This document shows, one piece after another, positions 44,781 through 63,999 of a DNA stretch of 64,000 nt. Position numbers and translations under genes: made by a program. This DNA is from Turicibacter sanguinis (GTDB taxonomy: Bacteria > Bacillota_I > Bacilli_A > MOL361 > Turicibacteraceae): NCBI RefSeq assembly GCF_013046825.1, contig NZ_CP053187.1, positions 341,501-405,500 on the forward strand, read 5' to 3'. The notes under the pieces were generated by a model. It was not told the origin of the DNA. It was given only the letters and a program-made list of their open reading frames with translations, and did no database searches. The number at the start of each line of letters is the position of its first letter. Position 1 is the stretch's first letter.

Positions 44781-45098
44781 TTAAATTGAAGAGGTTGTAA
44801 ACTTATTATTACCACGCTGTCTTGATTTTTCTAAGTTGTTCGTTGCCAACTTAATTTGTTGATCGATTGCCTCTTCTGAATCTAGGATGCCGCTGCTAAT
44901 CCCTGCACTAATCGTCAAACGTCTATCTTTTAAATCGGTTGAATTTTCAATATTTAAATCGTAGATTGTTTGCATTAAATGCATTAAATTAGGAACAAAT
45001 GCCTCCTTTGAATGATACGACACAATAATAAATTGATTGCCCAAATGACGTGAAATATATTCATTTTCAAAAATCTCTTTAATACAATTTACCAAAGT
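44781..45098 (-). pseudogene. C-terminal fragment of a fourth TPR/GGDEF-like protein
   Basis: One hundred and four codons match the end of the GGDEF-like domains of the proteins at 45245, 48567 and 53380: FENEYISRHLGNQFIIVS, LTISAGISSGILDSEEAID and LEKSRQRGNNKFT. The N-terminal TPR and membrane parts are missing; at 45099 the sequence changes to an IS30 fragment. SRHLGNQF replaces the GGDEF motif. It is the remnant of a tandem gene copy lost through IS30-linked deletion. Confidence 0.82.
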
Positions 45099-45099
45099 T

Positions 45100-45199
45100 T
45101 TTAAGGCGGTCTACCTGATTAATCATCGATCACGAAAATGTTTAGGTTGGAAAACTTCATCCGAATTATTTCATGAGCAAGTGTCGCACTTATATTGAT
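45100..45199 (+). mobile_element. 3' fragment of an IS30-family element
   Basis: About 100 bases encode LINHRSRKCLGWKTSSELFHE and end in a TGA, matching the end of the transposase at 30355-31297 (NHRPRKCLGCKTSFKLFHE). The right end (TATTGATAATTCATCATA) also matches. It truncates the neighbouring GGDEF-like gene. Confidence 0.82.
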
Positions 45200-45244
45200 A
45201 ATTCATCATAAAAAAAGATTTTTGTAGTTGATTTATCCATACTT

Positions 45245-47197
45245 TTATACAGTAAAGGTATTACATCCTCTTTGTCTTGAAACTTCTAAATGGTGTGACG
45301 CTACTTTAATATAGTGATCGATATCCTGCTTAGAGTGAATGATGCCGCTACTTAATCCTGCACTAACCGTCATTCGCCTATGCTCTAAAACAAGTGTATT
45401 GATAATATTCAAGTCATATATCATCTGTAAAAGTTTTTTTACTTTAAGAACACAATTTTCTTTAGAGTCAGTGGAAACAATAATAAAGAAATGCCCCGAA
45501 TGACGGGCAATATACTCTTGAGTAAAGGTGTTTTTAATTTGATTCGACAATATTCTAATAATATGATCGCCATTTAAGTATCCGTAAACTTCATTATATC
45601 GCTTTAAATCATCATACTGAACAACGGTAAACGTCAATTCTTGCCCGAAATATTTTTCTAATCTGTTATATAGAGCAGACTTCGTTAAAGTATGGGTCAA
45701 AGAATCAAAATCTTTTTGAGCTTCGACTTCCGTCACTAAATCTAGTATTCTCTTTTTATGATTGGATATTAAATACACAATCGACCCTATGCCCATTGTT
45801 GTGATTGATATCATAAAGAATAAAACAATCCTTTTGCTTACATTTCGATTTTGTCTCTCTTCTTTCGTTTTAAGATAAATCTCATTTAAATCAATAAGGT
45901 CATCATCAAGTAATTCATTATCAACAATCTGAGCACGACTCTTCATCGCATCATAAGCCAATGAATAATGATTAAGCTTTAAACTTTGATTGACAATTTC
46001 ATCTAACAAACTAATTTTACTAATGAAATATATGTCAGAAGATGCAATTTTTTTATACAAGTCAATATACTGCTCAATGATTTGATCACTTTTTTCACCT
46101 TTTAAGACCAAAATATCTAAGTCTATTTTTTGTATCCAATAGTTTAACATCGCATGGAGACTTGTCTCATTTTTTTCGTAAATAACTCGTGCTCGATTAA
46201 GATAAATCTTTGCAATCTCTGGTTTATTTTCAAAAACTGACAATTCTGCTTGTAATAATTCTACCCAAAACTGTAACCAAATTTCGTGATCCGTCATCGA
46301 ATTTTTAACACTCTCGATGTGTTGATTCAAAAATTCAATGGCATGATCATATCCATAAACCACTCGTAAAGATTTAGCTAGCTGCTCAAAATAAGTGATT
46401 AAATCAAGATCTCCCCATGTTAGCAAACAGGGATATAGCGTTTCAACTGCTTCTTCATAATTTTTATTTAAAAAATAGGCGTTTCCTAATTCAATTGTAA
46501 TCGCTCGCTGGAGATTTTTATAATCGTTCCAAACAGATACTTCAAAAGCATCTAACAGATAGTTAATGCTTTTACTATATTGGCCAGAGAACAAATAAAT
46601 TTTAGCTAATAACCTTAAATTTTGAATTTCTTGAAATGGTTCTTGTTTTTTAGTTTTATTAGACTCCAATATTTTTATAATTTGTGCTTTGTAATCTTTT
46701 GTAACATCTAAGGCCTGTGAGAATCGATAATTCAAACTCATCACTTCCGCTTCATCGTCTTTAAAAGCTTGAAGCGCCAAATTATAATACTCAAATCCTT
46801 TTTCGATTTTCCCTTGATGAATCGCATTAAAGCTTAACTCTCGATAGACCATTCCACATAAGGTATCACAATGCATGCTATCTATACTTAATGCTCGATA
46901 ATAATAATCATTTGATTGATTATAATCTTCATTTAATGATTCAATATAACCTAAAGAAAAATAGCTGTGTTTTAGCGCGTCACGGTGTTCGGTTCCTTCA
47001 ACTTCTTGTTGAATTTTATCCTTATAAAATTTAAGATTATTTTTTAAATCATCTTCCTGAATTGTCCCTATTTTATTCAAAAAATCTTTCGTCATAGGAG
47101 GTAATGTTAAATAATCAACAGCTAAACCTATACATATGACAGTCACGATAATAAAAAAAATTAATATTGCCTTGAAAGATTTTGACTTCAAAACCAT
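45245..47197 (-). CDS. TPR membrane protein with degenerate GGDEF domain (paralog 1)
   Basis: About 650 residues: membrane helix near the N terminus (AILIFFIIVTVICIGLA), an extracytoplasmic region of TPR-like helical repeats (residues 60-430; DYNQSNDYYYRALSID and similar), a second helix near 460-480 (IVLFFMISITTMGIGSIVYLI), a coil, and a GGDEF-fold domain. DDLKRYNEVYGYLNGD keeps the substrate-loop pattern, but the signature is ARHSGHFF instead of RxGGDEF, so cyclase activity is unlikely. The start is uncertain: ATG 47195-47197 is two bases, and TTG 47189-47191 eight bases, from AGGGGAG. Confidence 0.85.
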   Translation of the reverse strand: MVLKSKSFKAILIFFIIVTVICIGLAVDYLTLPPMTKDFLNKIGTIQEDDLKNNLKFYKDKIQQEVEGTEHRDALKHSYFSLGYIESLNEDYNQSNDYYYRALSIDSMHCDTLCGMVYRELSFNAIHQGKIEKGFEYYNLALQAFKDDEAEVMSLNYRFSQALDVTKDYKAQIIKILESNKTKKQEPFQEIQNLRLLAKIYLFSGQYSKSINYLLDAFEVSVWNDYKNLQRAITIELGNAYFLNKNYEEAVETLYPCLLTWGDLDLITYFEQLAKSLRVVYGYDHAIEFLNQHIESVKNSMTDHEIWLQFWVELLQAELSVFENKPEIAKIYLNRARVIYEKNETSLHAMLNYWIQKIDLDILVLKGEKSDQIIEQYIDLYKKIASSDIYFISKISLLDEIVNQSLKLNHYSLAYDAMKSRAQIVDNELLDDDLIDLNEIYLKTKEERQNRNVSKRIVLFFMISITTMGIGSIVYLISNHKKRILDLVTEVEAQKDFDSLTHTLTKSALYNRLEKYFGQELTFTVVQYDDLKRYNEVYGYLNGDHIIRILSNQIKNTFTQEYIARHSGHFFIIVSTDSKENCVLKVKKLLQMIYDLNIINTLVLEHRRMTVSAGLSSGIIHSKQDIDHYIKVASHHLEVSRQRGCNTFTV

Positions 47198-47290
47198 CTC
47201 TCCCCTATTCAAACCCAATCCAATTCACTTCTATCACAAAGGTATCATATTTTCCTACAATATAACAATATTTTCAACAATTATACACAA

Positions 47291-47320
47291 AAATCCTGAT
47301 AAATTTTTATCAGGATTTTT
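47291..47320 (-). terminator. Terminator after the old yellow enzyme gene
   Basis: AAATCCTGATAAA and TTTATCAGGATTT form a stem with a very short loop and T-runs on both sides. It ends at the stop codon of the oxidoreductase gene. Confidence 0.88.
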
Positions 47321-48355
47321 TTATTTCATTCGAATACAGCGTCTACCTTCACGATAATAAAGACCATAACAACGATTACATGAGACACACTTTGATTTGT
47401 GGCCTGCTTTTAATTGTCTAACCAGATTTGGTTCACAAATAAAAGGACGGCAAAATGAAATCATGTCGATTCCATTTTGCAAAACGTGCTCAATATCAGA
47501 TAAGGTTCGAATTCCTCCCACTAAGATTAATGGAACAGTTGTTAATTCTGCTAGTCTTGAGGCACGTTCTAAATAGTAATTGTGATCGGTATATTTTTTC
47601 TTGCCAAAGTCGCATCCGCTTAGTTCGACTGCTTCCACTCCTAGAGTTTCAAGTTCATTGAGCATATAAAGTAAATCTGATTCATACGCTTCGTCATTTA
47701 GTTCAACATTACTATTGATTTTTATAAATATTGGATAATTTTCTCCGCAAGCTTGTTTGATTCCTAATATGATTTCGCGTGGGAACCTGAATCTATTTTC
47801 CACGCTCCCACCATACTCATCCTGTCTTAAATTATGTTGGGGCGTAATGAATTCACTTAATAGATAACCGTGAGCCATATGAACCTGTACGCCATCAAAT
47901 CCCGCTTCTTTTGCGCGTTTTGCGGCATCAATAAAAGCGTGGCGAATGCTTTTCAACCCTTCATGCGTTAATGCCAAAGAAGGCGTATCTCCCCGTAGCC
48001 ATAATTCTGAAGGTCCAACTGGTTGTGCTACCCTTGCTTTTGCTCCTGCATGCGCAAGTTGTGCAATAAACTTACTATCATACTGGTGAACAGCGTCGAC
48101 GACTTCTTTTAACCTTGGAATAACAGCATCACAATCAATGGCATTTTGATCCTCACTCGCACGTCCTTCTTTCGAAACATAAAGATGTCCCGTCATAATT
48201 AAACCCACCTGGTTTTTCGCTAATTCCTCATATATTTCTAACTGTTTATCACTCATCAATCCATTACATTCTTGAGCATAATCGTGTGTGGCGGAGCGCA
48301 CAAAACGATTGATTAATGATAAGTTTTTTAACTCCAATGCTTTAAATGGACTCAT
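47321..48355 (-). CDS. NADH:flavin oxidoreductase, old yellow enzyme family (barrel only)
   Basis: The 344-residue FMN barrel has NRFVRSATHDY near the N terminus, QLAHAGAKA, VHMAHGYLLSEFITPQHNLR (catalytic His region and active loop), RFPREIILGIK, and the FMN phosphate site LVGGIRTLSDIEHVL. The C terminus has CVSCNRCYG, which resembles part of the iron-sulfur cysteine motif of 2,4-dienoyl-CoA reductase-type enzymes, but the FAD/NADH domains are missing. It probably reduces alpha,beta-unsaturated carbonyls. GGGAGGGATTTCG precedes the ATG. It is flanked by TPR/GGDEF-like paralogs but no functional link is evident. Confidence 0.88.
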   Translation of the reverse strand: MSPFKALELKNLSLINRFVRSATHDYAQECNGLMSDKQLEIYEELAKNQVGLIMTGHLYVSKEGRASEDQNAIDCDAVIPRLKEVVDAVHQYDSKFIAQLAHAGAKARVAQPVGPSELWLRGDTPSLALTHEGLKSIRHAFIDAAKRAKEAGFDGVQVHMAHGYLLSEFITPQHNLRQDEYGGSVENRFRFPREIILGIKQACGENYPIFIKINSNVELNDEAYESDLLYMLNELETLGVEAVELSGCDFGKKKYTDHNYYLERASRLAELTTVPLILVGGIRTLSDIEHVLQNGIDMISFCRPFICEPNLVRQLKAGHKSKCVSCNRCYGLYYREGRRCIRMK

Positions 48356-48503
48356 CGAAATCCCTCCCGTTAATTCTCACATCTCTAATTACTACTGTAG
48401 TCTATTTTAAACACACAAACAACCCTTCAAATAATATCCCATGGTTAAAAATAAAGAAAAGCTATGAGCCTTTTTACTACATAGCTTTAATATGATCTGT
48501 GAA

Positions 48504-48560
48504 ATGGATGATCCCTTTCTTCAAGAGGAAACCTAGCTTCGCTAGGATAGGCCCCCCCAT
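48504..48560. repeat. Short palindromic repeat
   Basis: GGATGATCCC, then CCTAGCTTCGCTAGG (48532-48546, a perfect seven-base stem) and GATAGGCCCCCCC. The same core occurs at 50567-50587, and the GGATGATCCC start recurs near 60272. It lies just after the stop of paralog 2. Confidence 0.6.
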
Positions 48561-48566
48561 TCTTTT

Positions 48567-50519
48567 TTAGACTGTCACCTTATTTGATCCACGTTTTTTA
48601 GATAACTCTAATTTATAAGTCGCATCATTAATATGTTGATCAACCTGTAATTTGGTTAATACTTTACCAGTCGATAATCCTGCACTAATCGTCACACGTC
48701 CATCGACTAGATTAGATGTATTCTCTATATTTTCATCATACATCTTTTCTAATAAATACTCCAATTTCAATAAACAAGCTGAACGATCATTAGGTGAAAC
48801 GACAATAAAATGATGCCCTGCATGTCTTGCCACATAAGCCTCCGGGAAAGTTGTCTTAATTAACTGAGCTAGCTTTTGAAGCACCCTATCTCCAGTTAGA
48901 TAACCATATACCTCATTATAACGTTTAAAATCATCAATATTAATCACCATAAAATTCAATAAATCATCTTGACCCATATGAACTTCAAGACAGTCATACA
49001 ACGCTTCTTTCGTTAAGGTGTTCGTTAATGTATCCACATCTTGCTTCGCTTTAATCTCATTCGATAAAGCTTTAATTCGAGATTGCTTCTTGAAAATAAT
49101 ACAAATAAGAACTCCTACACCCCCAACCAATAGGGTACCTATTATACTCACGATTAATTTCATCATGATCTGATTTTGTTTAATCTGATCTAATATCATC
49201 TCATAAAATTCACTAATATTAAAGGAATCATTTTTAATATCAGTACTTTTAAAATTGCATAATCTTTCATTTAGATATTGATATCCTAATTCATAATTAT
49301 TAATCTCAATACTCTGTTTAACCACCTGCTCCAATAAATTGATCTTAGCTGTGACATAAATTTCTGAATCAACAATTTCTTTATATAATTGGTCATATCT
49401 ATCTGCAATTTCTTGATTTCTTATTCCAGTTTGCACTAAATAATCTAATTCAACTTTCTCTTTCCAAAGATACAATGTTGTCTCTTGCAACTCCTCGTTA
49501 CTTGTATAAACTTTATCCAAGTGTTGAATAAGGTCATTTGCTTCTGCAACTTTTCCTTCATTAATTGCTAAACTAGCACGAATCCATGTATACCAAAAGT
49601 CTAACCATTCTGATGATTCAACAGATAATTGACTCACATAATCATTCAAAAATTCAATTGCTTTATCGTATCCCTGAACCACTCGATAAGATTCTACAAG
49701 CTGAGGAATATATGAGATAAAATCGTCTTTTTTGTTTCTTGGAAAAAGACTTTCTAAAATTGAAATAGCTTGTTCATAATCCCCATTTAAAAAATAAGCT
49801 TGTCCTAGCTTAATTGAAACTTCCTCTTGAATAATTTTATAATCATTCCATACACTCACCTTATATGCATCCAGTAAGTACATGATACTCTTTTCATAAT
49901 ATCCACTAAGCAGATAAACATTAGTTAATAAGCGATGAGCTTCTAAATAATCATACTCATTCACATTTTTATCTATCACAAATTCTAGTAGTGGGATACT
50001 AGACTGAGGATTACTAGAAAACTCAACGATTCCTTGAGAAAAACGTCGATAAAGACTTGATTTAAGTTTTATCATATAAAATTTTGAAACATTTTTTTCT
50101 GCTAATTCAAAATAATAATTAGCACTTTCTTCATCGTTTAAAGCTAGGGCATTATAAGCCAACTCTTTGTATAAATTAATACAAATAGTTGAACTTGAAT
50201 CTTCCCCAATACTTAAGGCTTTTAAATAATAATGAGTTGATTCTTCAAAATTCCCATCTAAAGCCTCTAAAAAGCCAAGTGCATAAAATCCTTTTTGAAG
50301 ATCTGATCGCCTTGTCATCTGTGATAATTCAGCTAAAATCTGAGACTTGTATTCCTCGACTTGATTTTCTTCCCATGAATAAATAGAAAAATGATCAATT
50401 TGATTAACGACTTCCTTTGTAACTGTTGAACGGTTCCATTCTATCAGCATAAAGACAAAACATAAGCATAAAAGTGCAGTCATTATTTTAATTGATCCCT
50501 TTAAATATTTTATCTTCAA
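48567..50519 (-). CDS. TPR membrane protein with degenerate GGDEF domain (paralog 2)
   Basis: 650 residues: N-terminal helix (IMTALLCLCFVFMLIEW), TPR-like repeats (residues 50-420) with NFEESTHYYLKALSIG and GYYEKSIMYLLDAYKVSVWND, second helix near 440-465, and a GGDEF-fold domain with DDFKRYNEVYGYLTGD. The signature is ARHAGHHF in place of GGDEF. It starts with TTG behind AAGGGGGTGTTTGA. It is closest to paralog 1 (shared SVWNDYK and GYDKAIEFLN segments), so the two are recent duplicates. The second and fourth residues of the signature are His, which recurs in other paralogs. Confidence 0.85.
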   Translation of the reverse strand: MKIKYLKGSIKIMTALLCLCFVFMLIEWNRSTVTKEVVNQIDHFSIYSWEENQVEEYKSQILAELSQMTRRSDLQKGFYALGFLEALDGNFEESTHYYLKALSIGEDSSSTICINLYKELAYNALALNDEESANYYFELAEKNVSKFYMIKLKSSLYRRFSQGIVEFSSNPQSSIPLLEFVIDKNVNEYDYLEAHRLLTNVYLLSGYYEKSIMYLLDAYKVSVWNDYKIIQEEVSIKLGQAYFLNGDYEQAISILESLFPRNKKDDFISYIPQLVESYRVVQGYDKAIEFLNDYVSQLSVESSEWLDFWYTWIRASLAINEGKVAEANDLIQHLDKVYTSNEELQETTLYLWKEKVELDYLVQTGIRNQEIADRYDQLYKEIVDSEIYVTAKINLLEQVVKQSIEINNYELGYQYLNERLCNFKSTDIKNDSFNISEFYEMILDQIKQNQIMMKLIVSIIGTLLVGGVGVLICIIFKKQSRIKALSNEIKAKQDVDTLTNTLTKEALYDCLEVHMGQDDLLNFMVINIDDFKRYNEVYGYLTGDRVLQKLAQLIKTTFPEAYVARHAGHHFIVVSPNDRSACLLKLEYLLEKMYDENIENTSNLVDGRVTISAGLSTGKVLTKLQVDQHINDATYKLELSKKRGSNKVTV

Positions 50520-50548
50520 TCAAACACCCCCTTCTCAAATGTCAACAA

Positions 50549-50590
50549 TCCCATGAGCACATCACACCTAGCTTCGCTAGGATGGGGACA
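50549..50590. repeat. Short palindromic repeat
   Basis: CCCATGAGCACATCACA, then CCTAGCTTCGCTAGG and ATGGGG. The outer CCCAT and ATGGG face each other, as in the copy at 40191-40230. Confidence 0.6.
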
Positions 50591-50840
50591 TTTTAAATTC
50601 TAATGATACTGATCTATAAAAAGATGCACATGGAGTTAAAAATTGACATGAACTTAAGTCTCATTGCTTTCCTCCCCTAATAAATCAGATTTCAAATGAT
50701 TTAATTCCATATTGCCTGTTATATTTATTACAAAATTATACAAAAAACATCTTTTATTATCTTAACATTTCTAACAAAATACATCAATATGTGTTCCTAA
50801 TTTATTCCATTTTAACATCAATATGGATACTTTTTTAAAA

Positions 50841-50872
50841 AAATCGGGTAAATGATTACATTAAGCCGATTT
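50841..50872 (-). terminator. Terminator after the sensor histidine kinase gene
   Basis: AAAATCGG / CCGATTTT eight-base-pair stem with an 18-base loop, T7 after it on the minus strand, directly after the kinase stop. Confidence 0.75.
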
Positions 50873-50878
50873 TATCCA

Positions 50879-52546
50879 TTATTGTGGCTTTTCTAATGTA
50901 ATTGAAAATACAAATTGATGTCGACACTCATCATAATCAAAATATGTACTTCCATTATACTTAGCCACAGCACGTTTAATATTTTCAACTCCATAACCAT
51001 GCTGACCCTTTTGAATCTTTGTACTTTTCAATTTCCCCTTCGAAATAATAGGGGCCACATCGCAACTATTCACCACTTTGATGATGACATACGTCTGATT
51101 AAAAGACGACATCGTAAATTGAATTTCCTTTTGTTCACTTTTCTCACAACTCTCAATCGCATTATCAAGCATATTCGTCAAAATAATCGTCATCTCTTTA
51201 AAATCCACAAAATCTAGTGACACGTGTTCAATCCGTTTCGTAAAGGTAATGCCTATTTTCTTCATCTGAGAAATCTTATCATTCAAAATAATATCTACCA
51301 ATCGATTTCCCGTAATCACAATCGACGACAACTGATTCAAATCTTCATAAACACTATCAATATAATGACTTGCCTCTTCCGGTGTCTGTTGATTAATAAA
51401 ACCTTTTATACAAATAAGATGATTTTTAATATCATGAGCTAGCTGATTAATTTGATCATTCTTTCTTAATAGTACCTTGTTGTGCTCGATAATCATCCGA
51501 TTTTGTTCACGTTCGTTCTCAATTTCCTTTGATTTCATGTACTTAAATGTTGCAATCCCACCTAATATAGCGATGATAAATGAAGCACACGCAATTCCTA
51601 TTGCAACATGAATCTGGGTTTCAAAATTTTGTTCAAAAGCCTTAAATTCAGACATTGTTTGCCGATAAAAATCTTTCATGGGGGTACTAGTTAACACAAC
51701 TAAATCATACGGAGCATACAACTCAGCATATAACATATCCTGATTGTCATTGTTTTGAACATAACCAAAATAAGTTCCATTATCCTTTAGCCCCCCTAGC
51801 ATTTCTTCTAAAACATAACGTCCCCTATCATCTTGATAGGTTGTATTAATATAGCATCCTTGTCTTGCACAACTTGGTGAGACACTTATCCCTTGAATGA
51901 CTTTAGCAAATTTATCTCCACCTTTATAATCAACAATTTCGATTAAGGTGTAAATCGATGTTAAATTAGGATTTTCGTCGAACGCGTCTTTTAACATTCC
52001 TTTATACATTGTCTTTAAATCGGAATCTGAAATCCCAATAATTACAATATACCGATCCTCTCCCACCATATGCTGCCTCCATAGTGCAAGATCAAAGAAT
52101 AAATCACTATACAGGATATCCTGTGCAAGTATCATATTATTTTGTTTAAATTCAGCTACCACGGTTTGATGGTGTTGATCGTAGACCCTAATTTGTAAAT
52201 CTTTGTAGACAGAAGTTAAAAAAATAAACATCTCCATAATATCCTTGTCTTGTTCAGATTTTTCAATGATATATTCATGGAGGATTGAATCGACAACATT
52301 TAACGATTTATTATAATCTTCAATCAGATAATCAAAATCAATATTCACTCTAATCATCAACTCATTAACATCATTTTTCAATTTACTTTGTTCCACTTCA
52401 ATTAAAGATTGCGTTAAACAATTAATATTGTTTTGATAAGCCACCTGCATAATCCTAATATAAATCCATATTAAACCAAAAACGACGATCCCAATAATAA
52501 GAATAGCATTAAGGTAAATTCGCTTTTCCGAGTTGTTTTTTTGCAT
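50879..52546 (-). CDS. AgrC/CitA-type sensor histidine kinase with extracellular sensor domain
   Basis: The 555-residue protein has a membrane helix (about residues 12-32), an extracellular domain of some 290 residues with a CARQGC pair, a second helix (about 320-345), then QLAHDIKNHLICIKGF (phospho-accepting His), NMLDNAIESCE (N box) and GQHGYGVENIK (G box). The HDxKNHL form and fold are those of AgrC/NatK-type kinases (HPK10) that pair with LytTR regulators. The LytTR gene is directly upstream. ATG 52544-52546 lies eight bases after AAGGA. Confidence 0.88.
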   Translation of the reverse strand: MQKNNSEKRIYLNAILIIGIVVFGLIWIYIRIMQVAYQNNINCLTQSLIEVEQSKLKNDVNELMIRVNIDFDYLIEDYNKSLNVVDSILHEYIIEKSEQDKDIMEMFIFLTSVYKDLQIRVYDQHHQTVVAEFKQNNMILAQDILYSDLFFDLALWRQHMVGEDRYIVIIGISDSDLKTMYKGMLKDAFDENPNLTSIYTLIEIVDYKGGDKFAKVIQGISVSPSCARQGCYINTTYQDDRGRYVLEEMLGGLKDNGTYFGYVQNNDNQDMLYAELYAPYDLVVLTSTPMKDFYRQTMSEFKAFEQNFETQIHVAIGIACASFIIAILGGIATFKYMKSKEIENEREQNRMIIEHNKVLLRKNDQINQLAHDIKNHLICIKGFINQQTPEEASHYIDSVYEDLNQLSSIVITGNRLVDIILNDKISQMKKIGITFTKRIEHVSLDFVDFKEMTIILTNMLDNAIESCEKSEQKEIQFTMSSFNQTYVIIKVVNSCDVAPIISKGKLKSTKIQKGQHGYGVENIKRAVAKYNGSTYFDYDECRHQFVFSITLEKPQ

Positions 52547-52569
52547 TCTTATCATCCTTTCTAAATAAA

Positions 52570-52600
52570 AAAAACGCCCATTGCTCTCAAGGGGCGTTTT
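52570..52600 (-). terminator. Terminator between response regulator and histidine kinase genes
   Basis: AAAACGCCCC / GGGCGTTTT with a ten-base loop and T8 on the minus strand, three bases after the LytTR stop. It would reduce kinase transcription relative to the regulator. Confidence 0.85.
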
Positions 52601-52602
52601 TA

Positions 52603-53307
52603 TTAAAGTTGACTAATATAACGAACAAAACTCGTTTTAAAACCTTTATATTTCCTTAATGACATATAAACTTCTTCACCTGTTGTCAATGTCACTTTAT
52701 CCCGAGCAACTAATTTTACATATTTTAAATTTACTAAATAACTTGAATGGGTATATTCAAAATGATGAATCGCTAAACGATGATACCAACTATTTAAATT
52801 ATAGCTACTTGTATAGATTGCTTCAGGTGTATGAATTAAAACTTTTCGACCTGATATTTCTAAATATGTGATATCCTCAATTAATACTTTCTCTAATGCC
52901 CTTTCACTACGAGCAGAAATATATTTTTTTGCAGTATTTAATTCTTCAATTAAGGAAGTCAACGCTTCAGTTAATTCATCCTGCTTTAACGGTTTGATTA
53001 AAAATCTTGATGCCATGACCTTATATCCTTCTGGCCAATAATGTTCATAAGCTGTAACAAAAATGATTTTACTTTTAGGACACGTTTTTCTAATTTCTTT
53101 GGCCACTTCTATCCCATTAATCCTAGGCATCTCAACATCTAGAAAGATGACATCATATTCAAAATAATTTTTTTCTAAAAAATCTTCACCACATTCAAAA
53201 TAATCAATCTCAAACTTAATTCTACACTCACTTCCATAAGCCTTTAAACTGTCAATTAACTCAACTGCTTGAATTCGCGAATCTTCACAAATTGCAATTT
53301 TATACAT
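52603..53307 (-). CDS. LytTR-family response regulator
   Basis: The 234-residue protein has a receiver domain (IAICEDSRIQA; phosphorylation site in FLDVEMPRING; FVTAY; FLIKPLKQDEL) and a C-terminal LytTR DNA-binding domain (DITYLEISGRKVLIHT, FEYTHSSYLVNLKYV). ATG 53305-53307 follows GGTGGTGAAATA. It should be phosphorylated by the AgrC-type kinase encoded downstream. Likely targets are the neighbouring TPR/GGDEF-like genes, but no direct-repeat LytTR box is certain. Confidence 0.9.
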   Translation of the reverse strand: MYKIAICEDSRIQAVELIDSLKAYGSECRIKFEIDYFECGEDFLEKNYFEYDVIFLDVEMPRINGIEVAKEIRKTCPKSKIIFVTAYEHYWPEGYKVMASRFLIKPLKQDELTEALTSLIEELNTAKKYISARSERALEKVLIEDITYLEISGRKVLIHTPEAIYTSSYNLNSWYHRLAIHHFEYTHSSYLVNLKYVKLVARDKVTLTTGEEVYMSLRKYKGFKTSFVRYISQL

Positions 53308-53379
53308 TATTTCACCACCATTAATCCGCAAACTCTCCTAAGTTAACATTTTAACAAGCAAACTATACCTAATCCAAGT

Positions 53380-55302
53380 TTAAATCGTCAACCTATTTTT
53401 TCCTTTTTCTTTTGAGATTAAGACTAAATCCTGTGCTTTTTTTAGATATTTATCTAAATTAATCGATGAATCTAAATTACCACAAACAATTCCCACACTT
53501 AACGTCATACGTAAATCTCTTAAATTCGTCACATGTTCAATATTTAAAGCATATGTTTTATCAATCAATTGTTGTGCACGCTGTGCTGCTCTCATTTTAT
53601 CATCTTGTGTCACAATAATAAACTGTTGTCCATTATGTCTCGTCAACAATCCTTCTTTAAACTCACTCTTAATTAACTCAAATACTTGCTCAATCACCTG
53701 ATCTCCAGCAATATATCCATATGTCTCATTGAACTTTTTAAAATTATCTAAATCAACAACAAAAACACTTCCATTTGGATATTTCTCCGAGCATTGATCA
53801 TATAACTGTTGTAACGTTAAAGCTTCCATCTCTTTATCAGGTAAGTCTTGTTTTTTAGAACGTAAACTTTTTCGTTTTTTATTATAACAAACAAACAAAA
53901 TCGTTGCGAGTAATCCCCCAACAAGAATCCATCTGCCTATTATTAAGGATGGATTCTTATCGTCAACTTTATCACTCATCGTATTTTTAAGATTTTCTTC
54001 AATCAAATTAATTTGAATCAAACTTTCTGATTTTAATGGGGTAGGGATTTGACTTGCAAAGTAAAAAGCTTGTTCATAATTTTCTAACTCAAGATTTTTT
54101 TGAATGATATCCTTTAACAATAAAATTCTTAATACCGAATCAATATCCCCTTTCATTACCTCTTCATAAAAATCTGTATAAAAATCAAGCAGTTCTTGCC
54201 CCTCGAACTTAATGTCACCATAGAGCTTATTTTTAAAAACATTTAGAGACTGAATTTCATAGTTCCCCTCCGCCTCAAATTCGGCTGCCAATAATTGTTC
54301 TAATGCTTTTTCCTTTTGTCCATCCTCAATATATAACTTGGCTCTAATGAGTGACTTGTAACCCTCTTCATACTCACTCTCTTCTAATACTGAGTTAACT
54401 CTTTCATCTTCAATCAACTCTAAGGCTTTCTCAATCCCGTGCTCGTTAGCAATACTATAAATATACGGCCCGAACATATAAAAAGGAATTTCCTCTTGCC
54501 TTGCCACAATTAAATCTTCATAGATCGAAATCACATTCGTATAAGATTCATTGACATACTCATTAATAACTAAACTACTAATGCCACAACTTAGTAAGTC
54601 TTCATAGCCATAAGTTTGAGCCAGTGTGATAGCTTTTAGGGCATACTGATTCGATAAATCTATCTGTAAAGTTCCTAAATAAAGATTCTTTAAGATTAAG
54701 CAACTCATAATATTTTGATAAACATCTGAACTAAGTTCTATAGACTCTTGTAATAATTGGACTGCTTGATCAGTATTCACAAGTAGATTAATGTAATCTT
54801 TAGCTCGCATCTGATAAATCAGCGATAACAACTGATCATTCTCACTCTCAATAGCAAAAGATTTAGCGTATTCAAAATACTCATCTGATTTAGGATTATT
54901 CTCAAGATATAAATAATTTTTAGAAATCCCCATCAATACGATTGCTTCTACTTCTTCAGGTTGATTTTTTCCAATAGATAATTCCTTTACAAAGTAATTA
55001 TTTGATTCTTCATACTCTCCTTGATAAAAGTTCACATATGCTAGATAAGAATAAGCTTTTTTTAATTCATTCCGATTTTTACTGTCATCGAGCCTCTCAA
55101 TGACCTCTTTCTCATAGCTTACTAACACATCTGGGGTTAGACTCATGAGCTGATGATCTAAATTCTCAATAAACTCACTTAACTCTAACGATTCTGTTGT
55201 TTCCTTATGATGAATACCGATTCCAACGAGTGTTCCCAAAAGGAGAAGGACGAATAAAATCCTCTGCAAAATGATCCACCTCAATATATAAATTTTAGAC
55301 AA
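53380..55302 (-). CDS. TPR membrane protein with degenerate GGDEF domain (paralog 3)
   Basis: 640 residues: N-terminal helix (ILFVLLLLGTLVGIGI), TPR-like repeats (residues 55-400), second helix near 455-473 (WILVGGLLATILFVCY), basic linker, and GGDEF-fold domain with DNFKKFNETYGYIAGD. The signature is TRHNGQQF, without the GGDEF acidic pair. It starts with TTG behind CAGGGGATGG; later TTG codons are alternatives. It is more diverged than paralogs 1 and 2. It lies directly upstream of the LytTR gene in the same orientation, so it may be co-transcribed. Confidence 0.83.
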   Translation of the reverse strand: MSKIYILRWIILQRILFVLLLLGTLVGIGIHHKETTESLELSEFIENLDHQLMSLTPDVLVSYEKEVIERLDDSKNRNELKKAYSYLAYVNFYQGEYEESNNYFVKELSIGKNQPEEVEAIVLMGISKNYLYLENNPKSDEYFEYAKSFAIESENDQLLSLIYQMRAKDYINLLVNTDQAVQLLQESIELSSDVYQNIMSCLILKNLYLGTLQIDLSNQYALKAITLAQTYGYEDLLSCGISSLVINEYVNESYTNVISIYEDLIVARQEEIPFYMFGPYIYSIANEHGIEKALELIEDERVNSVLEESEYEEGYKSLIRAKLYIEDGQKEKALEQLLAAEFEAEGNYEIQSLNVFKNKLYGDIKFEGQELLDFYTDFYEEVMKGDIDSVLRILLLKDIIQKNLELENYEQAFYFASQIPTPLKSESLIQINLIEENLKNTMSDKVDDKNPSLIIGRWILVGGLLATILFVCYNKKRKSLRSKKQDLPDKEMEALTLQQLYDQCSEKYPNGSVFVVDLDNFKKFNETYGYIAGDQVIEQVFELIKSEFKEGLLTRHNGQQFIIVTQDDKMRAAQRAQQLIDKTYALNIEHVTNLRDLRMTLSVGIVCGNLDSSINLDKYLKKAQDLVLISKEKGKNRLTI

Positions 55303-55537: not shown

Positions 55538-56893
55538 TCAATTAAGATATAACGCTTTCCCAACATATATCATATTAGGATTAGTGATCCCATTCAACTT
55601 CACTAATTCGGAAACCGTTGTACCATATTTAGTCGCAATCGCCCACAACGTATCCCCTGCTTTCACTGTATATTCAGTCGCTTCAACTCCACTCAATTCA
55701 CCTGGCATTTGTAATACTTCCCCGACATAAATCACATTAGGATTACTAATATCATTCAATTTCACTAATTCAGAAACCGTTGTACCATATTTAGCCGCAA
55801 TCGCCCACAACGTATCCCCTGCTTTCACTGTATATTCAGTCGCTTCAACTCCACTCGATTCACCTGAAATTTGTAATACTTCCCCGACATAAATCACATT
55901 AGGATTACTAATATCATTCAATTTCACTAATTCAGAAACCGTCGTACCGTATTTATTCGCAATCCCCCACAACGTATCCCCTGCTTTCACTGTATATTCA
56001 GTCGCTTCAACTCCACTCGATTCACCTGGCATTTGTAATACTTCTCCGACATAAATCACATTAGGATTACTAATATCATTCAACTTTACCAATTCAGAAA
56101 CCGTCGTACCGTATTTATTCGCAATCGCCCACAACGTATCCCCTGCTTTCACCACATAATCAACCGTCGTCTGTGGTTGAGACGGAATCTCAGGTTTTGA
56201 AACCTCAACTGAAGATAAGAAAATACCATCCGTAAAATAATCTAAATCAACTGAATTCGTTTCAATCCCATTAACTTCTCCTGCATCACTATATTGAAAA
56301 CCAACCCAGTTGGACCATTTTCCATTATCCTGTGGCTCAGATCCCCCGTAATCTGCTACCCATAGTGGATAGCTGGCTATCTCATCATTCCAAATGTTAA
56401 TCGCATTATAACTATCACTATATACGACGACCTCTTTCCCACTCAAAGCTTCAACCTCTTGAATAAACGCTAATCCAACCTCATTAATCTCCTCATTATT
56501 CAACAATCCAAACGACTCAAAATCCATCGCTAACCGGCAATCATATGAATAATCTTCAACAAGTGACACAAAAAAAGACGCCTGATTCTTTGCTTCCTCC
56601 ACACTCATCGCTGTCACATAATGATAAAAACCAACTTTTAACCCTGCTTCATTCGCCTTCTTGGCATTTGCCTCAAACTGCTGATCCACATAATCAAAAC
56701 CCTCACTACTTCGAATATACACCACCTCAACCCCAGATTCCTTAACTGCCTCAAAATCAATATCACCTTGCCACTCACTCACATCAATTCCATTATATTT
56801 CAAATCACTAGACGGAGACAAAGCTAATGCCTTTATATCAGAGCCTAAGATAACACTCACCATCACCACAATAGATACCATCCACTTTTTCAA
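55538..56893 (-). CDS. Secreted GH25 lysozyme with four LysM repeats
   Basis: The 451-residue protein has a signal peptide (residues 1-25, ending ALA), a GH25 muramidase domain (30-230) with [13 protein letters not shown] and AMDFESFG carrying the acidic catalytic residues, a linker, and four LysM repeats (about 246-450), each starting VKAGDTLW. It should cleave peptidoglycan outside the cell and bind it through LysM. It starts with TTG behind AAGGAGTG. The repeats are 54 residues each and almost identical. It may act in cell division or turnover, or be a prophage-like lysin; no phage genes are near. Confidence 0.9.
55541..56160 (-). repeat. Four tandem 162-base LysM repeats
   Basis: The sequence TATCCCCTGCTTTCAC recurs at 55651, 55813, 55975 and 56137, exactly 162 bases apart. 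Units are highly similar even at third codon positions, which points to recent expansion by recombination. Confidence 0.88.
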
Positions 56894-62977: not shown

Positions 62978-63010
62978 ACATCAAAACGATATACGTTAAA
63001 ATTCCAGTAC

Positions 63011-63098
63011 ATTCCCTACGTTGGCATTATCCAAATCAGGTTATAGGTCGACGCTCCATTTCGCATCCTCTCAGCCGGCTTGGGCCAGCTCCCTTTCC
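63011..63098 (-). ncRNA. TPP riboswitch (THI element)
   Basis: The minus strand has all core blocks: GGGAGC, GGCTGAGAGGATGCG, GACC, then ACCTGATTTGGATAATGCC and AACGTAGGGAA. It precedes thiM-thiE-thiD and is followed by a terminator, so it acts at transcription. Confidence 0.96.
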
Positions 63099-63102
63099 AT
63101 AT

Positions 63103-63999
63103 TTAATTATACTTAACTTTATCATACGACTTAAACTCCGTCAACAACATAACTCTAAAAATCAAAATGAGCATCAGGTTCAGTCCAATGGTGACTAAAA
63201 CGAACATACTATCCTTTGGCTCCGACGAATAAAATACAAGATATAAAAGAGGGAGTTGCAACACATATAAAGGAAGTGAAAGTTGCTTCACTAACTTAAA
63301 TACCTTTGATTTGAATTGAACCTTCATCAACACGACCATAATGCCTAGTACACTAGCAATCGGTAATAAAAAGTTCCAACTAATAGAAAGCAACAATAAA
63401 ATCCCACAAATTAAACTCAGATTTAATAAATGCTTTCTTAATATCATAAATACAACTTTTTGATAACGTGCAACCCACATCCCAACCATAACAAAGATCC
63501 CTGGCCACCCAGCTAACAAACCAAATAGACTCAAAATTTTTATATTTTGTGTGAATCCCATTAATAAATAAAACACAAACAACGTCACAATCAAAGACGC
63601 CTGACTTCCATCTAAAAACTGTCCCATTATCGTATGCTGTAAGATTTTAAACAACGAAACTTCCTCACCAAGATAAACCTGAACCAATCCCATTAAAACG
63701 TTACCTGATACAAACATCAAAAACAAGCGTATTGCCCTTTGAAATATTCTCTTTTTAATCAATCGATTTGCTTGAATTGAAAAATTCCTAAATTCTACCC
63801 CCACCAAAAACAAATAAACAGCTAAAGCGCCAGTTCCTAGGGTTTGAAGAAACTGAAGTATTAAATCAGGATGGCTCACTCGTTCAATCACTTGGTGAAA
63901 CAAAATTAAAATCAGACAGACGCCTTGAATACATTCAATATTCGATTTATTTAAAAATGCATAGCTTCCGCGGCCATAAAAATATGATTTATATGCCAA
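63103..63999 (-). CDS. Acyltransferase-like polytopic membrane protein (5' end outside window)
   Basis: At least 298 residues with about nine hydrophobic helices. IECIQGVCLILILFHQVIERV near residue 20 resembles the first helix of acyltransferase-3-type proteins, with the His near the helix end. The last visible codon at the window edge is TTG, so the start probably lies outside. The frame ends AT-rich just before the TPP aptamer. The acyl acceptor is unknown; surface polysaccharides or peptidoglycan are common ones. No signature beyond the first helix is certain. Confidence 0.55.
   Translation of the reverse strand: MAYKSYFYGRGSYAFLNKSNIECIQGVCLILILFHQVIERVSHPDLILQFLQTLGTGALAVYLFLVGVEFRNFSIQANRLIKKRIFQRAIRLFLMFVSGNVLMGLVQVYLGEEVSLFKILQHTIMGQFLDGSQASLIVTLFVFYLLMGFTQNIKILSLFGLLAGWPGIFVMVGMWVARYQKVVFMILRKHLLNLSLICGILLLLSISWNFLLPIASVLGIMVVLMKVQFKSKVFKLVKQLSLPLYVLQLPLLYLVFYSSEPKDSMFVLVTIGLNLMLILIFRVMLLTEFKSYDKVKYN

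Follow-up and report, generated by a model that had tools for sequence, protein, structure and literature searches.

Degenerate versions are frequent among GGDEF domains, making up 24% of them in a count cited by PMC3974145, and both degenerate GGDEF proteins and proteins that join tetratricopeptide repeats (TPRs) to a GGDEF fold are already known. A membrane-bound TPR-GGDEF clade that lacks both the active site (A-site) and the inhibitory site (I-site) and is tied to a LytTR regulator was not found in our literature searches. Here, we describe such a clade from a 64,000-nucleotide stretch of Turicibacter sanguinis DNA (NZ_CP053187.1, positions 341,501 to 405,500; hereafter, the window), which encodes three full-length copies, termed A, B1 and B2, and one B-like fragment. 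With a probability of about 0.5, we read these proteins as catalytically dead transmembrane (TM) receptors whose pseudo-GGDEF domain is a protein-contact or dimerisation module.

Like the Turicibacter proteins, RcbB of Vibrio vulnificus combines an N-terminal TPR solenoid with a C-terminal GGDEF fold, and it is controlled through TPR-TPR contact by RcbA, a TPR protein encoded next to it (PMC12282931). Likewise, in three of the congeners sampled here, the gene that directly follows the B copy encodes a TPR membrane protein. However, RcbB is cytoplasmic and active, whereas the Turicibacter proteins are devoid of the catalytic motif. The periplasmic-TPR cyclase pair of V. parahaemolyticus, mentioned in the same study (PMC12282931), needs an intact catalytic motif as well, which is lost in all members of the present family.

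A degenerate A-site within a GGDEF fold is also found in PopA, SgmT and CdgI (PMC3509222, PMC5635695). These proteins keep the RxxD I-site, and SgmT and CdgI were shown to bind cyclic di-GMP (c-di-GMP), in contrast with the Turicibacter family, in which no member has an I-site. SgmT further links its degenerate GGDEF domain to two-component signalling, although there the domain lies inside the kinase itself. Finally, PdeB, CC3396, RbdA and RmcA use a cyclase-inactive GGDEF domain as an internal switch, and that of PdeB also docks a protein partner, the PdeB-HubP pair being a case of an inactive GGDEF domain that acts by protein contact (PMC9061725). In all four, the domain is joined to an EAL phosphodiesterase, and the GTP-binding residues persist in PdeB, whereas the family described here lacks both the EAL domain and the signature acids.

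Signature residues and extent of the family

One genome per species was sampled, namely that of the window (G000, a single 3.0-Mb contig, C1) and those of four congeners (G001 to G004, of which G002 is 85% complete). The congeners contributed five further members (one each in G001, G004 and G002, and two in G003), which brings the family to nine. Residues are given in PleD numbering (327 to 447), transferred by alignment to the canonical GGDEF domains of the genus and by reference to PleD itself.

The four window signatures listed by the initial annotation (RHNGQQF, RHAGHHF, RHSGHFF and RHLGNQF) were recovered letter for letter. Across the family, R366, G369 and F372 are invariant (9/9), position 368 is free, and position 367 is H in seven members and Y in two from congeners (RYNGHQF and RYNGPRF), giving the pattern R[HY]xGxxF. 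The conserved RHxGxxF motif proposed earlier thus holds for seven of the nine members and was rejected as a strict rule. Positions 370 and 371, which correspond to the catalytic acids, are replaced in every member (HH, QQ, HF, NQ, HQ, HH, QQ, QH and PR); H, Q or N fills 15 of the 18 cells, none is acidic, and GG[DE]EF with both acids occurs in 0/9. The R, G and F of the pattern belong to the scaffold common to all GGDEF domains, and the novelty lies in the joint loss of both acids. Further, the first metal-binding Asp (D327) is N in B1 and Q in B2, being kept in the other six full members, and no member combines R359 with D362, the pair that defines the RxxD I-site.

These losses strongly support the earlier proposal that the family does not make c-di-GMP. 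Judged by its residues, it is almost certainly catalytically dead, and synthesis of c-di-GMP, or binding of c-di-GMP at an I-site, would be very unlikely. No GGDEF enzyme is known to us that can dispense with the signature acids. His, Gln or Asn might stand in for the acids in an altered metal site, the proteins then being cyclases or nucleotidyltransferases. This reading would be in line with the recurrence of these residues at positions 370 and 371 and with the moderately slow evolution of both columns, but is extremely improbable: B1 and B2 lack both D327 and E370, the residues at positions 370 and 371 are not fixed (the G002 member has PR), and the active non-canonical sites AGDEF and SGDEF keep DEF (PMC3974145).

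The initial annotation had also described N-D-Y-G and GD substrate-loop residues as kept in all copies. The motif in fact reads N-E-x-Y-G-Y-x-x-G-D, and Tyr replaces the canonical His after G in every member bearing the loop; the fragment starts past it. All five full-length B copies, as well as copy A of the window, retain the guanine contacts N335 and D344, and K442 is K or R in the B copies. In line with the suggestion of the initial annotation that the proteins may bind a nucleotide, the B copies might, as an alternative, be non-catalytic pseudo-enzymes that bind a guanine nucleotide such as GTP and integrate an outside signal with the nucleotide state of the cell. N335 is among the slowest columns, and inactive GGDEF domains that bind GTP exist in PdeB, CC3396, RbdA and RmcA (PMC9061725). 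On the other hand, both signature acids are gone, and a GGAAF substitution was the means chosen to disable GTP binding in PdeB (PMC9061725). Moreover, B1 and B2 are without D327, R446 varies, and guanine contacts have been lost from the A copies of G003 (D344N) and G002 (N335S and D344N), although these copies are still constrained. Such nucleotide sensing appears rather unlikely, and we prefer to view the domain as a contact module.

In a tree of the GGDEF domain from which the seven signature columns had been removed, the eight full members form one clade (bootstrap 100). Identity to B1 is low among members (19-36%). A full-length tree sets the A copies, which lie beside the LytTR regulator, apart from the B copies (support of 92 for A), while the domain-only tree leaves A unresolved. 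Because neither group carries the GGDEF signature, the simplest timing for the loss of the acids is before the sampled species diverged. A single base change suffices to turn D into H, E into Q or D into N; the ancestral loss could therefore have been a short step.

No member turned up in the order's three other genomes, nor, in a search with the TPR half, among the remainder of 395 genomes of the class. When the full profile was run across the phylum, the matches outside the genus were ordinary GGDEF domains and one same-layout RYGGEEF protein. This protein, G012:C15:33465-34508 (L107), from another family of the same class, resembles the Turicibacter proteins in its order of TPR, hydrophobic helix and GGDEF domain (profile positions 306-644, E 4.5e-36), but its signature is the canonical RYGGEEF and its grouping with the family is supported at 47 only. 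A scan of a contig collection, which may omit the genus itself, yielded general GGDEF proteins alone, nearly all of them canonical, and a sequence search of the PDB yielded ordinary GGDEF proteins only.

A mixture of GGDEF and degenerate homologs, which the initial annotation had held to speak against its reading, was not seen inside the family, where no member carries a canonical signature. Other degenerate GGDEF families of the genus carry different signatures (RLSNDVF, RLGNDVF and RLDGSIF), which indicates that R[HY]xGxxF belongs to the TPR pseudo-GGDEF family. The RLDGSIF protein, of PAS type (G000:C1:1207522-1207953; L005), has as its closest G001 relative a protein with an intact RIGGDEF (C1:894435) and is therefore part of a mixed family, unlike the TPR pseudo-GGDEF proteins.

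Constraint on the pseudo-GGDEF domain and predicted architecture

Site rates were lower in the GGDEF part than in the TPR/TM part (0.78 vs. 1.06). R366, position 367, F372, N335, D344 and Tyr340 fall within roughly the slowest 5% of alignment columns, with R, G and F of the signature among the slowest sites. Positions 370 and 371 are moderately slow (percentiles 0.19 and 0.29), and the persistence of H, Q or N there at such low overall identity suggests mild constraint. The ratio of non-synonymous to synonymous substitution rates (dN/dS) was measurable for a single, sufficiently close pair, the A copies of G003 and G002, with dS saturated or nearly so, and was approximately 0.08 in the GGDEF part (dS 2.4) and 0.19 in the rest (dS 1.5). 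The earlier claim that the shared pattern looks selected rather than randomly decayed is thus borne out by the single clade, the slow R, G and F, the low GGDEF dN/dS of this pair and the lack of any canonical signature in the family. Random decay is a very unlikely origin of the pattern, and the family is very probably maintained by selection.

The same data bear on the idea that the GGDEF half is a slowly decaying leftover, kept only to anchor a functional TPR ectodomain from the membrane side. One window copy is indeed a fragment, the A copy of G002 lacks both N335 and D344, and members are divergent. However, the GGDEF part evolves more slowly and with a lower dN/dS than the TPR/TM part, R, G and F are invariant, and full-length, stop-free open reading frames (ORFs) occur in every sampled species; this explanation is already largely refuted and very improbable. 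Within the solenoid, a patch at residues ~160-240 is ~91% identical between the A copies of G003 (L074:12926-14803) and G002 (L010:327-2204), vs. ~55% over much of the rest, and its third codon positions diverge as elsewhere; the patch is constrained and a candidate ligand site.

With regard to architecture, the description of three genes and a fragment sharing one layout holds for the three full ORFs, while the fragment encodes the last 104 residues only. The Pfam GGDEF model (PF00990) scored above cut-off in all four window copies (73, 65, 46 and 28 bits), and TPR models exceeded the curated cut-off in B1 and B2 and matched below it in copy A; no EAL match was obtained in the proteins. Hydropathy analysis placed two hydrophobic helices, one close to the N terminus and the other around residue 460. 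Positive charges precede the first helix and follow the second, a pattern which favours an inside N terminus, an outside TPR part and an inside GGDEF domain, and thus a predicted extracytoplasmic solenoid.

An AlphaFold model of B1, built from an eight-member alignment (mean predicted local distance difference test score of 79.6), comprised an alpha solenoid and a GGDEF fold. Residues 492-650 matched the GGDEF domain of WspR (Z 20.1, root-mean-square deviation (rmsd) of 2.1 over 155 residues), and a long helix (435-492), partly of low confidence, links membrane and GGDEF fold. Residues 13-387 matched the TPR superhelices of LGN (Z 24.7), RapI (Z 22.3, rmsd 4.6 over 340 residues) and NprR (Z 20.9). 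The likeness to the Rap/NprR peptide-pheromone receptors is one of fold only: with eukaryotic LGN scoring no lower, the match is generic to TPR solenoids, and Rap/NprR proteins bind their peptide in the cytoplasm, whereas the solenoid of the family is predicted to lie outside.

Gene neighbourhood of the pseudo-GGDEF copies

The features of the window locus are collected in the table. Their order is GH25-LysM gene, copy A, LytTR regulator, terminator-like hairpin, GHKL kinase, B1, a gene for an old-yellow-enzyme type oxidoreductase, B2 and the fragment.

Table. Features of the pseudo-GGDEF locus (positions refer to the window)
Feature	Position	Strand	Remarks
GH25 muramidase-like hydrolase with LysM repeats	55538..56893	minus	upstream neighbour kept in G001, G003 and G004
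Copy A: TM - TPR - TM - pseudo-GGDEF	53380..55302	minus	640 aa; RHNGQQF at 53620-53640
LytTR-type response regulator	52603..53331	minus	48 nt downstream of copy A
Terminator-like hairpin and T run, between response regulator and kinase	52570..52601	minus	z -3.8
GHKL (SpoOB-type) histidine kinase, weak extracytoplasmic Cache match	50879..52555	minus	relative in G003
Copy B1: TM - TPR - TM - pseudo-GGDEF	48567..50519	minus	650 aa; RHAGHHF at 48807-48827; AlphaFold model
Copy B2: TM - TPR - TM - pseudo-GGDEF	45245..47218	minus	657 aa; RHSGHFF at 45485-45505
Fragment of an additional B-like copy (C-terminal 104 residues)	44781..45095	minus	RHLGNQF at 45030-45050

Copy A lies immediately upstream of the LytTR regulator in all three genomes that have it (G000, G003 and G002), at a spacing of ~8 nt in G003 and G002 compared to 48 nt in the window. 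An A copy and a close relative of the regulator are both missing from G001 and G004; the best match to the regulator in G001 has 26% identity, and G004 has no match. In G003, the order is GH25-LysM, A, LytTR, kinase, B and TPR membrane protein, whereas G001 and G004 show GH25-LysM, B and TPR membrane protein with no two-component pair in between; in G002, a contig end holds A followed by LytTR. The TPR membrane protein that immediately follows B in G001, G003 and G004 (L074:7004-7825 and relatives) has a relative in the window genome that is 26% identical and encoded elsewhere (C1:1293310).

Copy A and the regulator are probably on the same transcript, the position of the terminator-like hairpin suggesting one transcript for these two genes and another for the kinase. 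No exact site matching the LytTR consensus direct repeats was found in the window or the congener loci. An Rfam scan of the cluster detected no c-di-GMP or other riboswitch near the pseudo-GGDEF genes at gathering score, and the structured-looking leader of B1 (50520-50700) folded no better than its shuffles. A TPP riboswitch was detected at gathering score far from these genes (62995-63105, minus strand).

Two further observations concern the history of the locus. A perfect 15-nt hairpin, CCTAGCGAAGCTAGG, occurs on both sides of B1 (48532-48546 and 50567-50581, minus strand; 0.02 expected in the window), is without a match in the congener loci, and may have been left behind by an insertion or duplication. 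Between the fragment and B2, a short open stretch on the plus strand (45103-45195), KAVYLINHRSRKCLGWKTSSELFHEQVSHLY, recalls what we take to be the end of an IS30-type transposase, no library match having been found, and may have caused the truncation of the fragment. PADLOC gave no match to defence families, and the plasmid collection contained no matching DNA.

Proposed mode of action

In the mechanism that we propose, the TPR solenoid (residues ~30-420 of B1) would be the input domain and would sense an extracellular ligand or partner, the ligand perhaps being a peptide or cell-wall product. The TM helix that runs into the signalling helix (~435-492) would pass the change inward and shift the dimer state, and the pseudo-GGDEF domain, no longer making c-di-GMP, would contact partner proteins. 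That the output is by protein contact without catalysis is a view that we mildly favour. Action of inactive GGDEF domains through protein contact has precedents in PdeB-HubP (PMC9061725) and in the E. coli GGDEF interactome (PMC5635695). The natural partner of copy A may be the adjacent LytTR/GHKL pair, although its coupling to this two-component system is put forward tentatively. In a more specific and unlikely version, the protein would be a TPR co-receptor in the membrane, and its dead GGDEF domain would work directly upon the co-transcribed LytTR regulator or the GHKL kinase with no cyclic dinucleotide involved; a cyclase fold would then have become a sensor arm of the two-component system. 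For the B copies of the congeners, the adjacent TPR membrane protein would be a candidate co-receptor, by analogy with RcbA-RcbB (PMC12282931).

A different kind of partner has to be considered in view of the c-di-GMP components of these genomes. Nine GGDEF matches were obtained in the window genome, comprising the four window copies, the degenerate PAS-type protein (RLDGSIF) and four canonical proteins (RLGGDEF, RYGGEEF twice and RIGGDEF), together with four EAL domains and one PilZ domain. One canonical protein (C1:991297, RYGGEEF) has the same TM-TPR-TM-GGDEF layout and is weakly related in its TPR part. The pseudo-GGDEF proteins might therefore act as dominant-negative partners that pair with canonical proteins such as this one and switch c-di-GMP output; heteromeric GGDEF contacts, including degenerate domains, were described in the E. 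coli GGDEF interactome (PMC5635695). However, no active partner of the same layout was found among the GGDEF proteins of G001, G003, G004 and G002. In G003 and G002, the sole other GGDEF protein detected is an SGDEF-EAL composite, which leaves almost no cyclase to pair with, although SGDEF sites can be active (PMC3974145). PilZ was not detected in either genome, absences in G002 being weak owing to its 85% completeness. The family thus persists where c-di-GMP synthesis looks minimal, and a dominant-negative role seems quite unlikely. A literature search for Turicibacter together with c-di-GMP returned nothing relevant.

Several points weigh against dead receptors with a contact module. Few columns evolve as slowly as N335, as would be expected had the B copies retained guanine binding, and the extracytoplasmic placement of the TPR part is a prediction. 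The linkage of A to the regulator comes from five genomes of one genus, including the 85% complete one, and the B copies of G001 and G004 are not beside a two-component system. The dN/dS values are rough, dS being saturated (2.4), and come from the A copies of one species pair alone.

To our knowledge, few roles have been assigned to GGDEF domains that lack both A-site and I-site. The Turicibacter family offers a clean case of a constrained GGDEF fold without either site, confined to one genus, forming one clade, present in every sampled species and having, in part, a fixed genetic partner, and it lends itself to asking directly whether protein contact can be the sole function for which a cyclase fold is preserved. 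If the coupling of copy A to the LytTR system is true, it would represent a new kind of input to two-component signalling.

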